From NCBI GenBank assembly GCA_025362395.1, contig JANYGK010000110.1, positions 1 to 64,000 of the forward strand: a DNA stretch of 64,000 bases, read 5' to 3'. Positions 13,626 to 24,287 of this stretch are shown here, piece by piece (positions within the stretch are counted from its first letter, which is position 1; the number at the start of each line of letters is the position of its first letter). A program made the translations under genes and the position numbers. A model generated the notes under the pieces. That model did no database searches. It had not been told where the DNA came from and worked only from the letters and a program-made list of their open reading frames with translations. This DNA comes from Bacteroidota bacterium. GTDB lineage: Bacteria; Bacteroidota; Bacteroidia; B-17B0; Aurantibacillaceae.

Positions 13626-14705
13626 ATGAAGCGTTTATTACCTGTATTGCTATTTCTTATTTCATGCCCGGGTTTTGCACAAATAGCAAAATACAGCAAT
13701 GAGTTTTTAAGTGTTGGCGTAGGCGCGCGCGCGTTAGCTATGGCAAATGCAAATGTGGCTTCCGTAAACGATGTTACCGCAGGCTACTGGAATCCGTCGG
13801 GCTTATTATTACAAAAAAGTAATGTACAGGTTGGTTTAATGCATGCCGAATATTTCGCCGGTATTGCAAAGTATGATTTTATAGGAGTTTCCAAGCGCAT
13901 TGACAGTAACAGCGTAGCAGGCATAACTTTTCTTCGTTTCGGGGTTGATAATATCCCTAATACAACCGAATTGATTGATGCGAACGGTAATATTGATTAC
14001 TCCCGCATAAAATCATTTAACGCGGTAGATGCTGCCGTGTTATTATCGTATGCGAGAAATATCCCCAAGTTGAAAGGCGTGAAAATAGGAGCTAATGCTA
14101 AAATTATCCGGCGCACACTCGGTGAGTTTGGCAGCGCATGGGGCTTTGGTATTGATGTAGGCGCTATGTATGATTATAAAAAATGGCGCTTTGCCGCTAT
14201 GGCACGCGATATTACAGGTACGTTTACTGCTTGGAGCTACACACTATCCGATAATGTAAAAAACACTTTTGCTTTAACAGGTAACGAAATTCCTACAAAT
14301 TCATTAGAAGTAACCGTTCCTAAATTAATATTGGGAGTAGCCCGTACGTGGTTTGTATGGGGCAATAAAATTTCTTTAGGAGGTGAATTAAACTTCATCA
14401 ATACATTCGACGGAAAGCGGAATACGGTTATTAAAACAAATGCGTGGAGTATGGAACCCGCGTTTGGCGTAGAAGTCGGCTACAAAGGTATTATTTATTT
14501 ACGCGGCGGAATTGGCAATGTGCAACAAATGAAAAATGTATTGGGAAATGATGTGACAACTGTTCAGCCGAATATTGGTGTGGGCATTAAGTATAAAGTA
14601 TTTGCATTGGATTACGCGATGACGAATATCGGAAATGTATCAACCACACTTTACTCTCACATCTTTACCGTAAAAATTGATATTAATAAAAAATTGATTA
14701 AATGA
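13626..14705 (+). CDS. PorV/PorQ-family outer membrane protein (type IX secretion)
   Basis: The 359-residue protein has a signal peptide ending at CPGFAQ. It then shows the PorV/PorQ pattern: GVGARALAMANANVASVNDVT, AGYWNPSGLL, and alternating beta-strands of a FadL/UPF0164-like barrel. In T9SS organisms PorV shuttles cargo from the translocon to the PorU sortase at the outer membrane. Here the stop overlaps the start of a PorU2-like C25 protease by 4 bases, which supports this role. I cannot separate PorV from PorQ or a paralogue by eye, so no symbol is given. Confidence 0.82.
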   Translation: MKRLLPVLLFLISCPGFAQIAKYSNEFLSVGVGARALAMANANVASVNDVTAGYWNPSGLLLQKSNVQVGLMHAEYFAGIAKYDFIGVSKRIDSNSVAGITFLRFGVDNIPNTTELIDANGNIDYSRIKSFNAVDAAVLLSYARNIPKLKGVKIGANAKIIRRTLGEFGSAWGFGIDVGAMYDYKKWRFAAMARDITGTFTAWSYTLSDNVKNTFALTGNEIPTNSLEVTVPKLILGVARTWFVWGNKISLGGELNFINTFDGKRNTVIKTNAWSMEPAFGVEVGYKGIIYLRGGIGNVQQMKNVLGNDVTTVQPNIGVGIKYKVFALDYAMTNIGNVSTTLYSHIFTVKIDINKKLIK

Positions 14706-17700
14706 TAAAACGTTTATTCATTTTATGCTTTCTTGCAGTAACTGTTTTAAACTTACAGGCACAGAAATATGGAAATGAATGGATAAATTATAATCAGAAA
14801 CATTACCGTATTAACATTCCTAAAACGGGCTTATACCGCATTGACTCCACAACACTTGCCAATTCAGGCATCCCGGTAAGTTTTATCAATCCTAAAAATT
14901 TTCAGCTTTTTATAAAAGGTGCCGAACAGTATATAACCATTGCGGGTGAAAGCGATAATGTGTTTAACGCGGGTGATTATATTGAATTTTACGCGGAAAA
15001 AAATGACGGACGTTTTGATTCTCTTGCCTATACAGGCCTTACAAGGTTACCAAATCCGTACATTTCCCTATTTAATGATACTAATTATGCTTTTCTAACA
15101 TGGAATGCTTCTTTAACCAACAGGCGTACCATACCTGAAACTGATATAAGCTTTAGCGGTTATACACCTGCTGATTATTATTACAGTGAAATAATACATA
15201 CCTCCACAAATGCTTATGCCTTGGCCAAGGTATTTATTGATGTGGTGTCTGACCCCCGGTATTTAGCCGCTGAGGGATATGGATTTGGAATTGCACAGGG
15301 GCAGGCAAGTCAAACTCCTACAACATATGCAGGCATCTATCCATCTTCGTCATTACCCGTTTATATAAAAGCGGCCTATTCTGGCAATTCGGAAAATTAC
15401 CTGGCCGCAGGATACGACCACGAACTAAAACTTGAATATTACGATAATACAGGAAATCTTGTAATGCTGCATGATACCACTTTCTTTGGCTTTCAGCAAG
15501 TTAATATTGAAAAGCAGGTTTCATCCACTCAATTCCAAAACAGTTCTTTTGTAAAAGCGACAAGCGTAAATAATCCATTGTTCAGCGGCATTAATAACTC
15601 TACGGTATTACATTATTTGTATTTAAAATACCCGCAAACTCCTAATTTTGGCGCTACAGCGGAACATAGCATGTACATTGACAATAGTGTTTCTGCTTCC
15701 AAAACATTTCTTGATCTTCAAAATGTAGCCGTAACGGGACCGGCCGTTTTTTATGATCTTACGAACCATAAATATATCTCTACAGTTGTAACCGGCAGCA
15801 ATGTTAAAGCATTGATCCCAAACTCCGCTACGCAAAAAAAATGTTTTTTAACCACAACAGGAAATATCAACAGTGTTACATCGCTTGCTGCAGTAAATCA
15901 ATCCGGTTATTTTGTTAACTACAGAAGCAGTAACCCTGATTCGGCTTATTTAATTGTTTCACATAAAGGGTTACAGCAATCTGCCAATGATTATAAGGCT
16001 TACAGACAAACTATCGACGGCGGGTCTCATAACGTAGTTCTTGCATATATTGACGAATTATATGATCAGTTCGCCTATGGTAATAAAAAAAATCCATTAG
16101 CCATTAAAAACTTTTGCAGCTATTTGAGTGATAGTTTGCCGACTCCGCCTAAATATTTATTGTTACTCGGCAAATCCTTAAAAAATGAAGAGGTGAGGTT
16201 TAACGCTACTTATTGGAATGCCTCTGATCTGCCGACTATGGGAATTCCGGCTTCAGATAACCTGATAACATCCGGCATACACGGCTCCGCTTCATCCGCA
16301 CCTTTTATTCCGGTTGGGCGTATTTCAGGTAAAACAAATCAACAGGTAATTAATTACCTTAATAAGGTAAAAACGCATGAAGCAGACCTGAAAAAAACTG
16401 AACCGGATGATTGGCATAAGCATGTGATTCACTTTGCGGGAGGAACGGATCTTAATCAACAACAATTATTTCAAAATTATTTACAAAGTTATTCTGTAAC
16501 TATTTGCGATACACTTTACGGGGGAAAAGTATTTAATTTTAAAAAAACTACTACGGCCCCTATTCAAATTACAATCAGTGATTCCGTAAAAAGATTGATA
16601 GATTACGGTGCATCCATTATTACATTCTTCGGGCATGGCTCGGTAAGCGGTTTCGATCAGGCAATTGACGACCCTAATGCATATAACAATAGCGGTAAAT
16701 ATCCGTTGTTCATTGCCAACTCCTGTTATTCGGGAGATATACATACTATGGGCAGCAATAGTACTAGCGAAAATTTTACGATGATACAGGATAAAGGGAG
16801 CATTGGCTTTATCGCTTCATCCTCAACCGGTATTGTATATCCTTTAAACATATATTCATCACAGCTATACAGGTCGCTGGCGTACGAAAGATACTACAGT
16901 GGTATTGGTGATGCCGTAAAAAATACCTGTACTAAAAATGCGATGATCGGCGATCGGCTTACCGAAATTACTTCACTGGAAATGACACTTGAGGGCGATC
17001 CCTCGGTTAAACTGAACGCCTTTACAAAGCCCGATTATCAAATCAATAATTCAAGCGTTTATTTTGATACACAAAGCTACGTGGATTCTATAGGCATTAA
17101 CGTGGTTATTAAAAACCTCGGAAAAGCGATCAAAGATACATTTGTGGTGAGGGTAGAAAGGTATTTTGCAACAGGTGATTCAAGTACTTATTTTCGCAAA
17201 ATTAAAGCGCCGTACAATCTTGATACTTTACACTTTAATATTATAAAAGATTTTGATAACGGTATCGGGTTAAACAGCTTTAGGGTATACATTGATTCCT
17301 ACAACGAAATTTCTGAACTGTCTGAAAACAATAACTCTACTACAGGCACTGTAGATCTTTTTATTCCGGGAGGTGATGTTGTGCCTGTTTATCCATATAA
17401 ATATGCTGTTATTCCTAAAGTGTCGCAACTTACATTAAAAGCTTCCACGGCCGATCCTTTTGCTCCGGCAACAAATTACCGCATTCAACTTGATACGAAC
17501 GACCGGTTTATAAATCCTATCAATTCAACATTGGTAAACACTGCGGGCGATGTGGTTGAATGGACCGTAAATTTACCTTTGGCAGACAGTACCGTTTATT
17601 TTTGGCGGATCTCAAAAGACTCTACACTTCTCACCGATTCTTATAAATGGAGAGAAAGCTCATTCCAGGTAATACAAAATACATCGGGGTGGGGACAGTC

Positions 17701-19720
17701 GCATTTTCACCAGTTTAAAAATGACACGTATCAATTTGTAAAATACAAAAAGCCTCAGCGTAAATTTGATTTTGAAAACGACGTATCTTCCATCATGTGC
17801 AGAACCGGTTTTTTATCGGCAATAGGCTGGGACCAGATCATCTATTCTATAAACAGCTCGCAAATGGCTGTGTGGAGCTGCGCGCAAGACGGCTGGACAA
17901 TCGTTATTTTTGATTCAACAAGTGCCCAACCACGGCAAAGTGTTTCCGCAAATGCCCCCAACCCGGGCCCGGGGCCTTACGGTAATTGCCATTGCGACGG
18001 TACAAGACCCCTGTTTGCTTTTGATTTCGGCACCACAAATTATTGTGGTTTCGCCAATACATGGCAAACTGATTTGCTGACCTTACTTAACAACTTACCG
18101 GTTAATACAAAAGTACTGGCCTATTCCACTCAGGATCATCAGGCATCAACCTATTCTAACGCTTTGTACACTGCCTTCGAAAGTATTGGAAGTGCAAATA
18201 TACGAACGGTTGCCGACAGCCTTAGCATTGCCATTTTCGGAAAAAAAGGAAACAGTATCGGGCAGGCTCATGAGGTAGTGGCAACGCGTCACAATGATAT
18301 TGTTATTTTAAACGATTCTATAAAAACCAATTGGAGCAGCGGTTATATTGCTTCAGAAATTATAGGCCCCTCGGCAAAATGGAACAGCCTGCATTGGAAA
18401 CAAGTACCTTTAGAGCTGCCGAACAGGGATACTGTAATTTTAAAAGTAGTTGGTATTAAAGTAAACGGAACCAGGGATACGATTGCTTCTTTCACATCCA
18501 ATATAACGGATGTATATAATTTTGATACGTACGCCGACGCAGTGGTATATCCATATATACAATTAGTGGCCTTAATGAGAGATGATATATATAAAACACC
18601 GGCTCAGTTAAAAAGGTGGCAGGTACTATATGACGAAGCTCCCGAATGTGCCATTAACCCCAAAAAAGGCTTTGCAATAACCAATGATTCGTTACAACAG
18701 GGCGAAAAATTAATAGTAAATATACCGATAGAAAATATTAGCGTAAAGCCTTTTACCGACAGTTTAATTATAACATATTGGGTAGAAGATAAAGACCGTA
18801 TCAAACATTTTTTACCTCAAAAATTGAAACCAAAACCTTTTGTGCCCGGGCAGGTAATAATAGATACTATTGGTTTTGACAGTTACCAATACCCGGGACA
18901 GAATTATTTATGGATCGATGTAAATCCTCCCGCGCATATCAGATACCAAAAAGAACAATACCATTTTAATAATATTGCCCGCATTCCTTTTAAGGTAAAC
19001 AGCGATCATATAAATCCTTTACTGGATGTAACGTTTGACGGTACACATATTTTGAATGATGACATTGTTTCTTCCAAACCCCATATCCTGGTAACACTAA
19101 AAGACGAAAACCGCTACCTGGCTTTAAATGATACTTCTGACTTTGCCGTGTTTATAAAATATCCTGACCAAGCTTCCGAAAAAAGAATTTTCTTCGGTAA
19201 CGCGTTACAATTTACACCGGCTCAACTTCCCAACAATTCTTGTAAAATTGAATGGAAACCTGAGTTTGCCATAGACGGAAAGTATAAGCTCATTGTGCAG
19301 GCAAAAGACCGAACCAGCAATGTATCGGGTGACAATGATTACACGATAAATTTTGAAATCATAACCAAGCAAACCATTACGCAAGTTTTAAATTACCCAA
19401 ACCCGTTCAGCACTTCCACACGTTTTGTGTTTACACTGACCGGCAGTGAAACGCCTGATATTTTTATAATACAGGTAATAACCATTACAGGTAAAGTAGT
19501 AAGGGAAATTACAAAAAATGAGCTCGGCAATATTCACATAGGGCGCAACATTACAGATTACGCCTGGGATGGGCGAGACCAGTATGGGGATAAGCTTGCT
19601 AACGGGGTATACCTTTACCGCGTAATTACACGCTCTAATGGCAGCCTAATTGAAAAAAGAGAAACAGAGGCAGATTCTTACTTTAAAAAAGGAATAGGAA
19701 AACTCGTGATTATGAGGTGA
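14702..19720 (+). CDS. porU2: PorU2-like C25 (gingipain-type) cysteine peptidase / T9SS sortase
   Basis: The 1672-residue protein begins with a signal peptide (cleavage after NLQAQ). A propeptide-like beta region follows, then a C25 peptidase domain (about 400-800). Its His645 lies in TFFGHGSVSGF and its Cys675 in ANSCYSGDI, 30 residues apart as in gingipains and PorU. After the protease come a CARDB-like region (about 775-900) and long beta-rich modules. The tail (about 1560-1672) has YPNPFSTSTRF and AWDGRDQYGDKLANGVYLYR, a FlgD-like or T9SS C-terminal fold. The family removes the C-terminal signal of cargo and attaches cargo to lipid. PorU proper is about 1100-1300 residues, so this longer protein fits the PorU2 group. 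It is coupled to the PorV/PorQ gene and ends 4 bases from the convergent next gene. Confidence 0.8.
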   Translation: MIKRLFILCFLAVTVLNLQAQKYGNEWINYNQKHYRINIPKTGLYRIDSTTLANSGIPVSFINPKNFQLFIKGAEQYITIAGESDNVFNAGDYIEFYAEKNDGRFDSLAYTGLTRLPNPYISLFNDTNYAFLTWNASLTNRRTIPETDISFSGYTPADYYYSEIIHTSTNAYALAKVFIDVVSDPRYLAAEGYGFGIAQGQASQTPTTYAGIYPSSSLPVYIKAAYSGNSENYLAAGYDHELKLEYYDNTGNLVMLHDTTFFGFQQVNIEKQVSSTQFQNSSFVKATSVNNPLFSGINNSTVLHYLYLKYPQTPNFGATAEHSMYIDNSVSASKTFLDLQNVAVTGPAVFYDLTNHKYISTVVTGSNVKALIPNSATQKKCFLTTTGNINSVTSLAAVNQSGYFVNYRSSNPDSAYLIVSHKGLQQSANDYKAYRQTIDGGSHNVVLAYIDELYDQFAYGNKKNPLAIKNFCSYLSDSLPTPPKYLLLLGKSLKNEEVRFNATYWNASDLPTMGIPASDNLITSGIHGSASSAPFIPVGRISGKTNQQVINYLNKVKTHEADLKKTEPDDWHKHVIHFAGGTDLNQQQLFQNYLQSYSVTICDTLYGGKVFNFKKTTTAPIQITISDSVKRLIDYGASIITFFGHGSVSGFDQAIDDPNAYNNSGKYPLFIANSCYSGDIHTMGSNSTSENFTMIQDKGSIGFIASSSTGIVYPLNIYSSQLYRSLAYERYYSGIGDAVKNTCTKNAMIGDRLTEITSLEMTLEGDPSVKLNAFTKPDYQINNSSVYFDTQSYVDSIGINVVIKNLGKAIKDTFVVRVERYFATGDSSTYFRKIKAPYNLDTLHFNIIKDFDNGIGLNSFRVYIDSYNEISELSENNNSTTGTVDLFIPGGDVVPVYPYKYAVIPKVSQLTLKASTADPFAPATNYRIQLDTNDRFINPINSTLVNTAGDVVEWTVNLPLADSTVYFWRISKDSTLLTDSYKWRESSFQVIQNTSGWGQSHFHQFKNDTYQFVKYKKPQRKFDFENDVSSIMCRTGFLSAIGWDQIIYSINSSQMAVWSCAQDGWTIVIFDSTSAQPRQSVSANAPNPGPGPYGNCHCDGTRPLFAFDFGTTNYCGFANTWQTDLLTLLNNLPVNTKVLAYSTQDHQASTYSNALYTAFESIGSANIRTVADSLSIAIFGKKGNSIGQAHEVVATRHNDIVILNDSIKTNWSSGYIASEIIGPSAKWNSLHWKQVPLELPNRDTVILKVVGIKVNGTRDTIASFTSNITDVYNFDTYADAVVYPYIQLVALMRDDIYKTPAQLKRWQVLYDEAPECAINPKKGFAITNDSLQQGEKLIVNIPIENISVKPFTDSLIITYWVEDKDRIKHFLPQKLKPKPFVPGQVIIDTIGFDSYQYPGQNYLWIDVNPPAHIRYQKEQYHFNNIARIPFKVNSDHINPLLDVTFDGTHILNDDIVSSKPHILVTLKDENRYLALNDTSDFAVFIKYPDQASEKRIFFGNALQFTPAQLPNNSCKIEWKPEFAIDGKYKLIVQAKDRTSNVSGDNDYTINFEIITKQTITQVLNYPNPFSTSTRFVFTLTGSETPDIFIIQVITITGKVVREITKNELGNIHIGRNITDYAWDGRDQYGDKLANGVYLYRVITRSNGSLIEKRETEADSYFKKGIGKLVIMR

Positions 19721-19724
19721 TTAT

Positions 19725-20699
19725 TTATTTTACAATTAAATGGTCAAGCATTTTATCCTTTACCACAAAGGTTCTCATCATTTCAGAAGCCTCTTTTAAA
19801 ACATCCTGTTCTACCGTATTTTTTAATCCCATTATTGCCATTGCTTTTTCTTCCGCTTTAAGCTTTGTCACATTTTCTGTTACAAAAATAGCATCGCTTA
19901 ATTGTTTCATTTTCAATACAGAATCTTTTAACTTGCGGAGTTCATTAATTACAAAGCCTAAAGCAAAAAACGAATCCTTGTCAAACTCAATAACGACAGC
20001 ATTTTTTAATTTAGTCTCTACCTTATTAAATCGGGAATTAAGAACTTCTTTCGTAAAATAATTCAGCACATATTTTTTTCTCTTCCCTGATTTTTTAAGT
20101 TGAATTAATCCACGGAAAGCTTGCGCATACATGCTTAGCCACCTTAACTTACGGCGTATCTCATGCACCTGATCCTCAACTTTAGTAAAAGTATAATCCA
20201 CTTTTAAACTAAAATACAGGATCGCATCAATTTCTCCAACGAGGGCAAACTTTAACTCGTCACTATATTCCTTGTTATACTTTACTTCAAATTCTCCTAA
20301 TTTAGTATCAAAAGATTGCATTTTATTTTTAAACCAATCTTTAGCTAACAAGCGCTGATTTAATTTTTCGATATAATTATTAGTATTAACCGTAAAATAT
20401 TTTACAATTTCTTTAGAAACCTTTTTAGTGTTTTTGAACTCACTTTCTAAAATAGAATAGTCATCGATTTGACCTAAAACGTCTTCCAGTTTTTTAAATC
20501 GCTTATTCCATTTACCAAATAATTTTTCATCAAAAGCTTTGTCGTGTATACGTGTCAGAGCCTCTAACATAAAGAGTATTGTTCTGGCGTCGTTTTTATA
20601 CAACCATAACGCTGGATTTCTTTGTTTAGAAGCCTTGGCTAATAAAGTTTGGAGTTGGGTACTGTAAAATAAAAATGGGTTAAAGTCAGTCTTAGTCAT
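19725..20699 (-). CDS. Uncharacterised helical protein, possibly CHAD-like
   Basis: This is a 324-residue, lysine-rich, mostly helical cytoplasmic protein without signal peptide or membrane segment. Two halves have similar layout: a conserved-looking basic helix (NDARTILFMLEALTRIHDK near residue 36; VHEIRRKLRWLSMYAQAF near residue 178) followed by further helices. A basic helix repeated in two helical bundles recalls CHAD domains, which bind polyphosphate, but the match is weak by eye and the canonical histidine pattern is incomplete. Its start is 3 bases after the stop of the TPR-SpoIIE phosphatase gene, so the two are surely cotranscribed. It may act in the same signalling path. Function unknown. 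Confidence 0.75.
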   Translation of the reverse strand: MTKTDFNPFLFYSTQLQTLLAKASKQRNPALWLYKNDARTILFMLEALTRIHDKAFDEKLFGKWNKRFKKLEDVLGQIDDYSILESEFKNTKKVSKEIVKYFTVNTNNYIEKLNQRLLAKDWFKNKMQSFDTKLGEFEVKYNKEYSDELKFALVGEIDAILYFSLKVDYTFTKVEDQVHEIRRKLRWLSMYAQAFRGLIQLKKSGKRKKYVLNYFTKEVLNSRFNKVETKLKNAVVIEFDKDSFFALGFVINELRKLKDSVLKMKQLSDAIFVTENVTKLKAEEKAMAIMGLKNTVEQDVLKEASEMMRTFVVKDKMLDHLIVK

Positions 20700-20702
20700 A
20701 AT

Positions 20703-22694
20703 TTAAATTTTAATTCCTATAATACAAATATCATCTACCTGTTCTAAGTCGCCCTTCCATAATTCAATGGAATTATAAAGTTTCTGCTTAATTTGTTCGA
20801 GCGGTAAATGAGTGTTAGACAAAAGCAGTTCTTCTATTTGTTTATACTTAAATTTTTTGCCTTTAGGGCCGCCGAACTGGTCGGCATACCCGTCGGTTAG
20901 TGTAATAACAACATCGCCTTTCTCAAGCTCAAACGTATGTTCCTCAAACAGCTGAGTAGTATTATGTCCTACTCCTACAGGCATTTTATTGGTTTTTGAA
21001 ATTATTAATTCATTATTCCTGATAATATAAAAATTATTATTAGCGTTAGAATAGGTTAGGATTTTGTTATTAAGATCAAAACTGCATAAGCAGCAGTCCA
21101 TCCCATCCTTTGTTTCTAAAATACTATCTTCCGGGTTCAGTGCTTTAATAATTTCTTTTCGAAGTTGGTTTAAAACTGCTGCCGGACTTGATATTTTTTT
21201 TTCATTAACGATCTCATTTAAAAAATTAATTCCCATCATACTCATCATAGCTCCCGGAACTCCATGCCCGGTGCAATCTGCGGTCATTATCATAAATCGC
21301 TCTTCATGATTTAAGGCCCAATAAAAGTCGCCGCTTACAATGTCTTTCGGTTTAAATAAAATAAAGTAATCTGTAGTATGTCGTTTAAAATAATTATCGC
21401 TCGTTAAAATGCTTTGTTGTATGCGCTTGGCATAATTAATACTATCCGTTATTTCTTTGTTTTTTTCTTCAACCAACTCTTTCTGATGATTCACTTCTTT
21501 ATTAAACGCTTCCAAGTTTTGATTTGTTTTTTGTTTTAAGCGGTTATTCCTGTACAAAATAACCAATACAAAGCCAAGCGAAATAAGGCCTATTGAAGAG
21601 GCTGCCAGGTATATTTTTTTCTTTTGGTTTTCCGCATCATTCAATTTTTGTTTTTCTCCAAGTAGTTCAATCTCTTTTTGCTTCTTTTCATTTTCATATT
21701 TTGCTTCGGCATTTTTAACCTGTTGTATACTTTCATTATTTAAGGTGCTGTCGCGATAAATTTTATATTCTTTAAAATACTTAAGGCTGTTTTTATAATC
21801 ACCCGTTTTTTCGTAAATATTACTCAGGTATTCCGTTGCAAGCTCTAACGCCGGTATATCGCCTGTTTTTTTTGTATATTCAATGGCTTTACCAATCACT
21901 TTAAAAGCTTCTTCATACATTCCGTTAAAATCTAAAGCATTGCCAAGCTGAATGCACGCGTGTGATAACGTATAATCATCGTTCATCTTGTTTGCAAAAT
22001 ATACCGCATTCCTCGCCGCATCAAGGCATTTCTCTTTATTATTTGCGGCAAAGTAAATTTCAGAAAGAGAAATATAATTATTGGCTAAGCCACTTATATT
22101 ATCATGTTTTAAATTATAATCAAGGCATAAATTCACATAATACATAGCACTGTCGGGCTTATTTAAGCTTGTATAAATACCTGCTACATTACTGTAAGCT
22201 GCTATTGGTAACTTATTGGGATATGTTTTTTGTAAATACTCCGCCCCTAACAGGTAATATGACAATGCTTTTTTAAGTTCACCGGTTGTGCCATAAAGAT
22301 TTCCTAAGGAATTATAAATGGCCGCGTACATACCAAGCTGATTATATTTTTTAGCATACTTCAATCCTTCATGATAAAGGTCGAGGGCTTTGGGAACCCG
22401 GGCCATATCAGCATAAATTGCTCCCATCGTATTGCATATACGCGAGTATTTCTCCTCATAATGCAGCTTTTTTGCCAGCTCATAACTTTGTATCGAATAA
22501 TCAATTCCTTTTTTAAGATTTGTATACGCGATATTCCAAGCTATCTTGTCTAACAAAATTACTTTATTTGTATCTTGTTTAGCTGTTTTTAAAACCAGCA
22601 GACACGAATCCATATTGATGTTTTGTGAAAACGAGAGTTTCCAAAAAAACATGCAGTAAAGCAAAAGCCAATACTTTAAAATATTAAAGATCAT
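20703..22694 (-). CDS. TPR-domain sensor with SpoIIE/PP2C-type phosphatase output
   Basis: The 663-residue protein has a signal peptide or first helix (residues 1-23), about six TPR repeats in the periplasm (about 35-310) and a coiled coil. A transmembrane helix (about 358-380) leads to a second coiled coil and a C-terminal SpoIIE-type serine phosphatase (about 448-663). The phosphatase has the metal-binding motifs VSGDFYWAL, TADCTGHGVPGAMMSMMG and ITLTDGYADQ. Such proteins signal across the inner membrane and dephosphorylate an anti-sigma-antagonist-like partner. No STAS protein is encoded next to it; the following gene (19725-20699) is cotranscribed. A SiaB-like kinase is encoded 13 kb away (35729-36304). 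Confidence 0.9.
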   Translation of the reverse strand: MIFNILKYWLLLYCMFFWKLSFSQNINMDSCLLVLKTAKQDTNKVILLDKIAWNIAYTNLKKGIDYSIQSYELAKKLHYEEKYSRICNTMGAIYADMARVPKALDLYHEGLKYAKKYNQLGMYAAIYNSLGNLYGTTGELKKALSYYLLGAEYLQKTYPNKLPIAAYSNVAGIYTSLNKPDSAMYYVNLCLDYNLKHDNISGLANNYISLSEIYFAANNKEKCLDAARNAVYFANKMNDDYTLSHACIQLGNALDFNGMYEEAFKVIGKAIEYTKKTGDIPALELATEYLSNIYEKTGDYKNSLKYFKEYKIYRDSTLNNESIQQVKNAEAKYENEKKQKEIELLGEKQKLNDAENQKKKIYLAASSIGLISLGFVLVILYRNNRLKQKTNQNLEAFNKEVNHQKELVEEKNKEITDSINYAKRIQQSILTSDNYFKRHTTDYFILFKPKDIVSGDFYWALNHEERFMIMTADCTGHGVPGAMMSMMGINFLNEIVNEKKISSPAAVLNQLRKEIIKALNPEDSILETKDGMDCCLCSFDLNNKILTYSNANNNFYIIRNNELIISKTNKMPVGVGHNTTQLFEEHTFELEKGDVVITLTDGYADQFGGPKGKKFKYKQIEELLLSNTHLPLEQIKQKLYNSIELWKGDLEQVDDICIIGIKI

Positions 22695-22755: not shown

Positions 22756-22763
22756 TATCTTTG
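22756..22763 (+). promoter_or_regulatory. -7 promoter box for gltX
   Basis: TATCTTTG matches the Bacteroidota consensus TAnnTTTG exactly and ends 6 bases before the gltX ATG at 22770. This also argues against the TTG start three codons upstream, which overlaps the box. No clear -33 box at normal spacing. Confidence 0.45.
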
Positions 22764-22769
22764 CTTGCT

Positions 22770-24287
22770 ATGGAAAAAAAAGTCCGATTACGTTTTGCTC
22801 CCAGTCCAACGGGAGGCTTGCACATGGGGGGTGTACGCACCGCTTTATTCAGTTATTTATTTGCTAAAAAACACGGTGGCGATTTTGTGCTGCGCATAGA
22901 GGATACCGATCAAACGCGCTACGTGGAAGGTGCCGAAGATTACATTATCAGGTCACTGAAATGGTGCGGTATTGAACCTAATGAAGGCGTAGGTTTTGGC
23001 GACGGGCCGTATGCTCCGTATCGCCAAAGTGAAAGAAAAGAACAGGGCATTTATAAAAAATATGCCGATCAATTAATTGCTTCCGGTAACGCGTACCATG
23101 CATTCGATACTTCCGAAGAATTGGATGAAATGCGTAAACGCTTGGAGGCCGCTAAGGTAATAGCTCCACAGTATAACGCAGTGACGCGGCAGAACATGAA
23201 AAATTCATTAACGCTGCCTGAAGATGAACTAACAAAATTAATTGCCGGAGGAGCACCTTACGTTATTCGCTTAAAAGTGCCGCGTAATGAAGAAATCCGT
23301 TTTCATGATATTATCCGGGGCTGGGTTACCGTTAATTCTTCGCAGGTGGATGATAAAGTATTATTAAAAAGTGACGGCATGCCAACCTATCATTTGGCGC
23401 ACATTGTGGATGACATTGAAATGAAAATTACACACGCCGTGCGTGGTGAAGAATGGCTGCCAAGCGCACCGTCACATATTTTAATATACCGTTATTTAGG
23501 ACTGGAAGATCAAATGCCGCAATTGGCGCATCTTCCGTTGATATTAAAACCGGACGGGAACGGAAAATTATCTAAACGCGATAAATCAGGATTGCCGATG
23601 TTCCCTCTAAACTGGCATGATCCGCGTGATAAAACGGATTATATAGGTTATAAAGAATCAGGCTTTATGCCGGACGCATTTATTAATATGCTGGCACTTT
23701 TAGGTTGGAACCCGGGCGAAAACAGGGAAATTATGAGCAAGCAGGAACTGATAGAAAATTTTTCTTTTGAACGTGTTAATAAATCGGGCGCTAAATTTGA
23801 TCCCGAAAAAACCAAATGGTTCAACCAACAATATTTGCGTATGCAAACCGATGAACAATTAGCGGAGGCTGTAGCTCCTTTACTGGAATCAAAAGGCATA
23901 AAAAAAGACCGGGCATTTATCATTGAATTTTGCAGGCTTATAAAAGAGAAGGCACATTTTGTGAATGAATTTTATGAGTTAGGATCTTATTTTTTTGTGG
24001 CTCCCGCGATGTTTGATGAAAAAGTAATGGCGAAAAAGTGGAACGACACTTCTAAAGACATGTTTACAAAATTGATCGCTAAGCTTGAGTCACTTCCGGT
24101 ATGGGATGCACACACCTTACATGACGCTTTTCAGGCAGCACAAACAGATATAGGGAAATTAGATATGCAATTGTTACGGGTACTTACAACAGGTGTTGCA
24201 GGCGGCGCGCAACTGTTCGATCTTTTAGCATTACTGGGAAAAGAAGAGTCGTTAAACAGGTTAAAAAATTCTTTGGAAAAATTATGA
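22770..24287 (+). CDS. gltX: Glutamate--tRNA ligase
   Basis: This class I aminoacyl-tRNA synthetase of 505 residues joins glutamate to tRNA-Glu in the cytoplasm. The HIGH-type motif is PSPTGGLHMGG near the N-terminus. The KMSKS-type motif is KLSKR near residue 266, and the Glu/Gln-specific RIEDTDQTRY follows the first motif as expected. Length is normal for bacterial GluRS. ATG at 22770 is chosen over an upstream TTG (22761) because family members start MEKKVRLRFAPSP and because the TTG lies in the promoter box. The stop overlaps the tadA start (ATGA), so the two are translationally coupled. Confidence 0.97.
   Translation: MEKKVRLRFAPSPTGGLHMGGVRTALFSYLFAKKHGGDFVLRIEDTDQTRYVEGAEDYIIRSLKWCGIEPNEGVGFGDGPYAPYRQSERKEQGIYKKYADQLIASGNAYHAFDTSEELDEMRKRLEAAKVIAPQYNAVTRQNMKNSLTLPEDELTKLIAGGAPYVIRLKVPRNEEIRFHDIIRGWVTVNSSQVDDKVLLKSDGMPTYHLAHIVDDIEMKITHAVRGEEWLPSAPSHILIYRYLGLEDQMPQLAHLPLILKPDGNGKLSKRDKSGLPMFPLNWHDPRDKTDYIGYKESGFMPDAFINMLALLGWNPGENREIMSKQELIENFSFERVNKSGAKFDPEKTKWFNQQYLRMQTDEQLAEAVAPLLESKGIKKDRAFIIEFCRLIKEKAHFVNEFYELGSYFFVAPAMFDEKVMAKKWNDTSKDMFTKLIAKLESLPVWDAHTLHDAFQAAQTDIGKLDMQLLRVLTTGVAGGAQLFDLLALLGKEESLNRLKNSLEKL

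Follow-up and report, generated by a model that had tools for sequence, protein, structure and literature searches.

Two genes of a Bacteroidota genome, one for a phosphatase sensor and one for a lysine-rich helical protein, lie end to end within the window, by which we mean the whole 64,000-nucleotide stretch of DNA that was analysed. The question raised by this locus is whether the two products work as a dedicated pair, and what the helical protein binds. Considering all the results given below, the reading we favour, with about even confidence, is one of two loosely coupled modules, in which a polyanion-binding variant of the CHAD fold (P0001) would be co-expressed with a SiaA-like sensor phosphatase (P0002) without being dedicated to it. 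The first-pass annotation had described a phosphatase sensor gene with that of a 324-residue protein 3 bases behind it, and this was confirmed from the frames, which lie on the minus strand and encode 663 aa and then 324 aa. The features of the locus are as follows:

19725..20699, minus strand: P0001, gene of the CHAD-fold protein, 324 aa, ATG start (ORF; Pfam, fold model)
20703..22694, minus strand: P0002, TPR-membrane-SpoIIE phosphatase gene with a SiaA-like phosphatase domain, 663 aa, ATG start (ORF; Pfam, NCBIfam)
20700..20702, minus strand: 3-base gap from the P0002 stop to the P0001 start (coordinates)
20103..20600, minus strand: PF05235 CHAD profile match within P0001, under the cut-off (19.9 bits, genome search)
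20142..20165, minus strand: repeat-2 motif H-x-x-R-R-x-x-R of P0001, codons 179-186 (alignment of 39)
20709..21305, minus strand: SpoIIE phosphatase domain, P0002 residues 464-662 (profile search)
21552..21617, minus strand: hydrophobic segment, P0002 residues 360-381, putative membrane helix (read by eye)
22761..24287, plus strand: gltX, divergent neighbour outside the pair, given as context (locus anchor in the genus and sister genera)
13626..19720, plus strand: PorV2 and PorU2 genes, convergent neighbours given as context, ending 4 bases from the P0001 stop

Neither open reading frame is a chance frame, since that of P0001 is kept in relatives down to 22% identity and that of P0002 is likewise kept in relatives. 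Scans of the locus for sigma-70-type promoters and terminators, and for a Bacteroidetes-type promoter pattern, stayed at shuffle level, so the operon structure rests on spacing; judging from the 3-base gap, P0002 and P0001 are likely cotranscribed. PADLOC gave no match for P0001, and for P0002 nothing beyond a generic TPR model. The convergent PorV2 and PorU2 are putative alternative type IX secretion proteins, with NF052325 and NF052324 above cut-off.

P0002 matched SpoIIE (PF07228) with an E-value of 2e-26, and several TPR families were above the Pfam cut-off. Its acidic motifs, SGDFYW (454-459), ADCTGHG (472-478), LTDGYADQ (599-606) and VDDICI (653-658), carry what we take to be the SpoIIE metal-binding acids, and P0002 is assigned to the SpoIIE phosphatases. 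Read by eye, the N-terminus looks signal-like, a hydrophobic segment (360-381) lies between the TPRs and the phosphatase, and there is a helical linker. The earlier description of a transmembrane phosphatase sensor is upheld by the TPR and SpoIIE matches above cut-off and by the membrane segment read by eye. The best NCBIfam match was SiaA (NF038263), at 165.8 bits and under the curated cut-off of 700. P0002 thus resembles the SiaABCD threonine-phosphorylation pathway of Pseudomonas aeruginosa over the phosphatase domain, and SpoIIE-SiaB-SiaC clusters occur in the same genome; it differs from SiaA in its TPRs, in a score far under the cut-off and in its neighbours, which are the CHAD-fold gene, gltX and PorU2, with no SiaB or SiaC gene adjoining. 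RsbU/SpoIIE partner switching in Bacillus offers another likeness, in that a sensor and a helical linker precede the SpoIIE domain; the idea of such a linker comes from PMC12143880. In contrast to that system, no STAS or RsbW-type gene adjoins P0002, the first-pass annotation having been right that the stretch examined holds no STAS or anti-sigma gene next to the pair, and the genome has one free STAS per 33 SpoIIE domains.

P0001 is lysine-rich and helical, as had been noted earlier (48 Lys, pI 9.56, mostly helix in the model), and Pfam finds a single domain with no TTM fusion. The proposed resemblance to CHAD held at the level of the fold (Z 13.9-15.6) but not at the curated Pfam cut-off, the match to PF05235 being sub-threshold at 21.0 bits (E 3.6e-4; cut-off 25.6). 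At E <= 1, CHAD was matched by 24 of the 39 family members, the best at 1.6e-7. The AlphaFold2 model, built on a 39-sequence alignment from which one CHAD-fold gene split across two contig ends (G058) was omitted, had a mean pLDDT of 93.7 and a pTM of 0.90. In VIA-align, five CHAD entries stood out: CtCHAD of Chlorobium tepidum, alike in whole-length fold over 265-277 residues (6qv7, Z 15.6; 3e0s and 6qva, both 15.4), the phosin PptA of Streptomyces (6rn5, 15.3) and 6qv5 (13.9). As unrelated helical bundles can reach a Z of about 13 here, the drop to 7.3 at the next, unrelated entry is the stronger point. Foldseek placed 6qva, the complex of CtCHAD with polyphosphate, first, although marginally (E 5.8e-3, TM 0.55), and had no match at E <= 0.001. 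Sequence searches of solved structures with P0001 or the family profile as query found no relative, and the hhalign match between the family profile and canonical Bacteroidia CHADs was weak (probability 45, E 2.2e-4; 20 of 30 fetched loci, ten having been removed by hand, mostly for wrong, short or GC-rich doubtful frames). Support for the CHAD assignment therefore comes from Pfam, from the fold and from the many relatives that match. The CHAD structures found in this way consist of two bundles, and "long" CHADs of about 300 aa are near P0001 in length, according to PMC6537752; the two-bundle fold of P0001 was found in VIA-align with all five CHAD entries. As confidently modelled, P0001 is a divergent CHAD-superfamily protein, probably cytoplasmic.

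P0001 and CtCHAD share 10-12% identity and differ at the positions that are expected to matter for function. CtCHAD binds polyphosphate via His253, Arg256, Arg260, Arg296 and Arg418/Tyr419 (PMC6537752). In a register taken from hhalign and the CtCHAD motifs rather than from a residue-level structural alignment, five of these six validated positions are replaced in P0001, most of the replacements being fixed across the family. His253 corresponds to Asn in 27 of 39 members (His in 5, Lys in 3, Thr and Ser in 2 each), Arg260 to Phe43 (Phe, 39/39), Arg296 to Asp79 (Asp in 36, Glu in 3), Arg418 to Ser (38, with one Gly) and Tyr419 to Ile (35, with four Met); only Arg256 is kept, as Arg39 in 39/39. 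The second bundle retains His179, Arg182, Arg186 and Lys258-Asp259 in every member, so that Arg256 and a second-bundle His/Arg/Lys-or-Arg set are common to both proteins. Lys69, Glu72, Asp73, Glu175, Arg183, Trp187 and Tyr191 are also invariant in the 39 rows, of which Lys69, Glu72, Asp73, Glu175 and Trp187 are new relative to CtCHAD. A conserved His occurs in repeat 2 only (His179), not in both repeats as in CHAD, and P0001 does not carry the set of polyphosphate-binding basic residues. This looks like an altered rather than a decayed binding site. CHAD proteins are taken as polyphosphate binders on sight; here the same fold has other residues fixed at the binding positions, which makes transfer of function from CHAD to this branch unsafe, means that polyphosphate binding by P0001 cannot be assumed, and raises the question of a second ligand for the CHAD fold. 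A literature search, with most subscription papers outside it, returned nothing that joins 'CHAD domain' with 'SpoIIE' or with 'Bacteroidetes'.

It could still be argued that P0001 is an ordinary phosin that lays a basic surface on polyphosphate or its granules, while P0002 tunes polyphosphate-related physiology. The polyphosphate complex 6qva is among the top fold matches, all 39 family members are basic (pI 8.3-9.9), the residues kept from CtCHAD are invariant, and PPK1 is encoded in 20/20 genus genomes, so that polyphosphate is probably made in these bacteria. We consider this reading unlikely, given the replaced positions and the neighbourhood: pptA shares a transcript with ppk and a nudix gene (PMC8003754), whereas the neighbour of P0001 is a phosphatase sensor and the PPK1 gene of its genome lies on a different contig, and no polyphosphate enzyme was found beside P0001-family genes among the neighbours examined, mostly clustered rather than profile-scanned. 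PPK1 is moreover nearly ubiquitous (78/90 relatives), so its co-occurrence with P0001 is uninformative.

Relatives of P0001 were found in 40 of the 87 genomes of the order, all within one bacterial family, and in 13 of 20 genomes of the genus. A class-wide profile search found the P0001 family in 11/395 genomes, four of them outside the bacterial family, while PF05235 itself was matched in 46/395 (41 above cut-off). At the 39 loci examined (the window and L039-L076), a SpoIIE gene lies directly upstream of the CHAD-fold gene on the same strand in 10: the window, L040, L042, L044, L046, L047, L048, L051, L053 and L054. The pair, whose occurrence in other Bacteroidota the first-pass annotation had proposed as a check, is conserved in the genus (g1) and a sister genus (g6), but loosely, in 8 of the 20 genus genomes (G000, which is the window's own, G070, G072, G073, G075, G077, G078 and G082). 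Five others have the CHAD-fold gene but no intact SpoIIE gene next to it (G068, G069, G071, G079 and G080), two have the SpoIIE orthologue without the CHAD-fold gene (G074 and G086), and five have neither. The order at the locus is gltX, SpoIIE, PorU2 in G086 and G074, and gltX, CHAD-fold gene, PorU2 in G069 and G071. In G080 the phosphatase gene is seen in the course of decay, with SpoIIE remnants of 68 and 62 aa (L041 10219-10425 and upstream) before an intact CHAD-fold gene. Elsewhere the two genes are parted by one gene (L052), by two SSB-like genes (L057 and L060), or by the same two and two further frames (L066). The gap is at most 4 bases at the window, L040, L044 and L053, and, with some uncertainty in the start codon, at L046, L048 and L051; the same strand and near-zero spacing are retained down to 36% P0001 identity. 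On a partly unresolved gltX tree of 13 loci, which leaves out L040, L047, L048 and L049 for want of a usable gltX in the stretch, SpoIIE presence changes five times and CHAD presence once.

This pattern fits our favoured reading, since two genes that so often occur apart in relatives are probably less a dedicated pair for signalling than neighbours. P0002 would hold its TPRs outside the inner membrane and pass through one membrane helix and the helical linker to a cytoplasmic SpoIIE domain with apparently intact acids, and its most likely substrate is a SiaC-type or STAS protein whose gene lies in another part of the genome. P0001 most likely binds a phosphate-rich anion via a half-site of the second bundle (His179, Arg182, Arg186 and Lys258), together with Arg39 of the first bundle. 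Because Phe43, Asp79 and the newly conserved Lys69-Glu72-Asp73 replace the first-bundle site, something other than long-chain polyphosphate may be the ligand. The link between the two proteins would then be co-expression in the genus, through tight spacing.

A weaker link still has to be weighed, namely that the genes are chance neighbours in a SpoIIE-crowded genome, which stay together only through common inheritance of the gltX-PorU2 interval. The P0001 branch does sit in a bacterial family rich in such genes, with 33 SpoIIE domains in the 4.08 Mb of the window's genome and between 19 and 60 P0002-like matches per genome in 8 relatives, and at none of the four loci outside the family is a SpoIIE gene close to the CHAD-fold gene. 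The spacing described above, which persists at low identity, and the adjacency of a second SpoIIE lineage in g8 make it improbable in our view. The CHAD-adjacent SpoIIE genes of g1 and g6 form one clade (support 96.8), and that of g3 could join them (p-AU 0.539, not rejected), whereas in g8 the SpoIIE genes near the CHAD-fold gene are another paralogue (p-AU 0.047 for a joint clade with g1 and g6). This second SpoIIE tree held 89 of 95 rows, six paralogues from the window's genome having been dropped, most of them long-branched or deep. A single clade of all three SpoIIE sets near CHAD was also tried and rejected (p-AU 0.0087). With g8 drawing on another lineage, SpoIIE may have arrived beside the CHAD-fold gene more than once. 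Recruitment on several occasions would speak for a functional link and so count against two loosely coupled modules; it is suggestive only, given so many SpoIIE genes per genome.

Further hints against that favoured reading come from the low SiaA score of P0002, with no SiaB or SiaC neighbour, and from the context of the CHAD-fold gene in genus g3. At 17 of the 39 loci (L056-L071 and L074), the gene of a LytTR response regulator lies 81-117 bases downstream of the CHAD-fold gene, and next to it there is mostly a gene for a LytS-type histidine kinase with a propeller (domains confirmed in one example), an arrangement that hints at signalling. A T9SS-sorted protein gene is often also present at these g3 loci, and SSB-like genes (113 and 111 aa, by eye) lie upstream of the CHAD-fold gene at L057, L060, L066 and other g3 loci. 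It is conceivable, although quite unlikely, that this Bacteroidia branch has turned its polyphosphate cradle into a receptor site, made up of invariant Lys, Glu, Asp, His and Arg residues, for a different and smaller phosphate ligand, and that it acts in signalling, joined successively to SpoIIE phosphatases from two or more lineages and to a LytTR two-component pair.

A dedicated partner switch, with P0001 as phospho-substrate or docking partner of P0002 relaying its signal, would suit the short gaps and the single SpoIIE clade with which the pair is retained in g1 and g6, but is very unlikely, as either gene survives at the same locus without the other, orphan P0001 homologues in the genus are no more diverged from outgroups (30.7-38.5% identity) than paired ones (31.0-41.4%), no Ser/Thr column conserved in paired homologues only was found, and no kinase gene adjoins the pair at the loci examined.

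Likelier candidate targets for the phosphatase are encoded elsewhere in the window's genome. STAS is represented by one free protein (contig C60) and one domain inside a 558-aa frame, and there is one strong RsbW-type ATPase (C96). SiaC is encoded three times (C58, C70 and C117) and is present in 20/20 genus genomes. The cluster on C58 (L238 3284-6464) begins with a TPR-SpoIIE gene of 715 aa; next come the gene of a SiaB-family kinase (125.7 bits; the cut-off is 85) and then SiaC. The one on C117 (L239 2255-7435) has a propeller-SpoIIE gene of 1095 aa and, behind it, a gene of 275 aa, a member of the SiaB family (166.9 bits) and finally SiaC. In Pseudomonas, phosphorylation of SiaC at Thr68 is set by SiaA and SiaB (PMC7647112). 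These Sia-type clusters supply an existing non-sigma output, so there is less need to invoke the CHAD-fold protein. The first-pass suggestion that P0001 is an uncommon output of partner switching is weakened accordingly, both by these clusters and by the separability of the genes, the unchanged orphans and the absence of special Ser/Thr columns. Three of the 33 SpoIIE domains also stand in a row on contig C97 (121000-125818).
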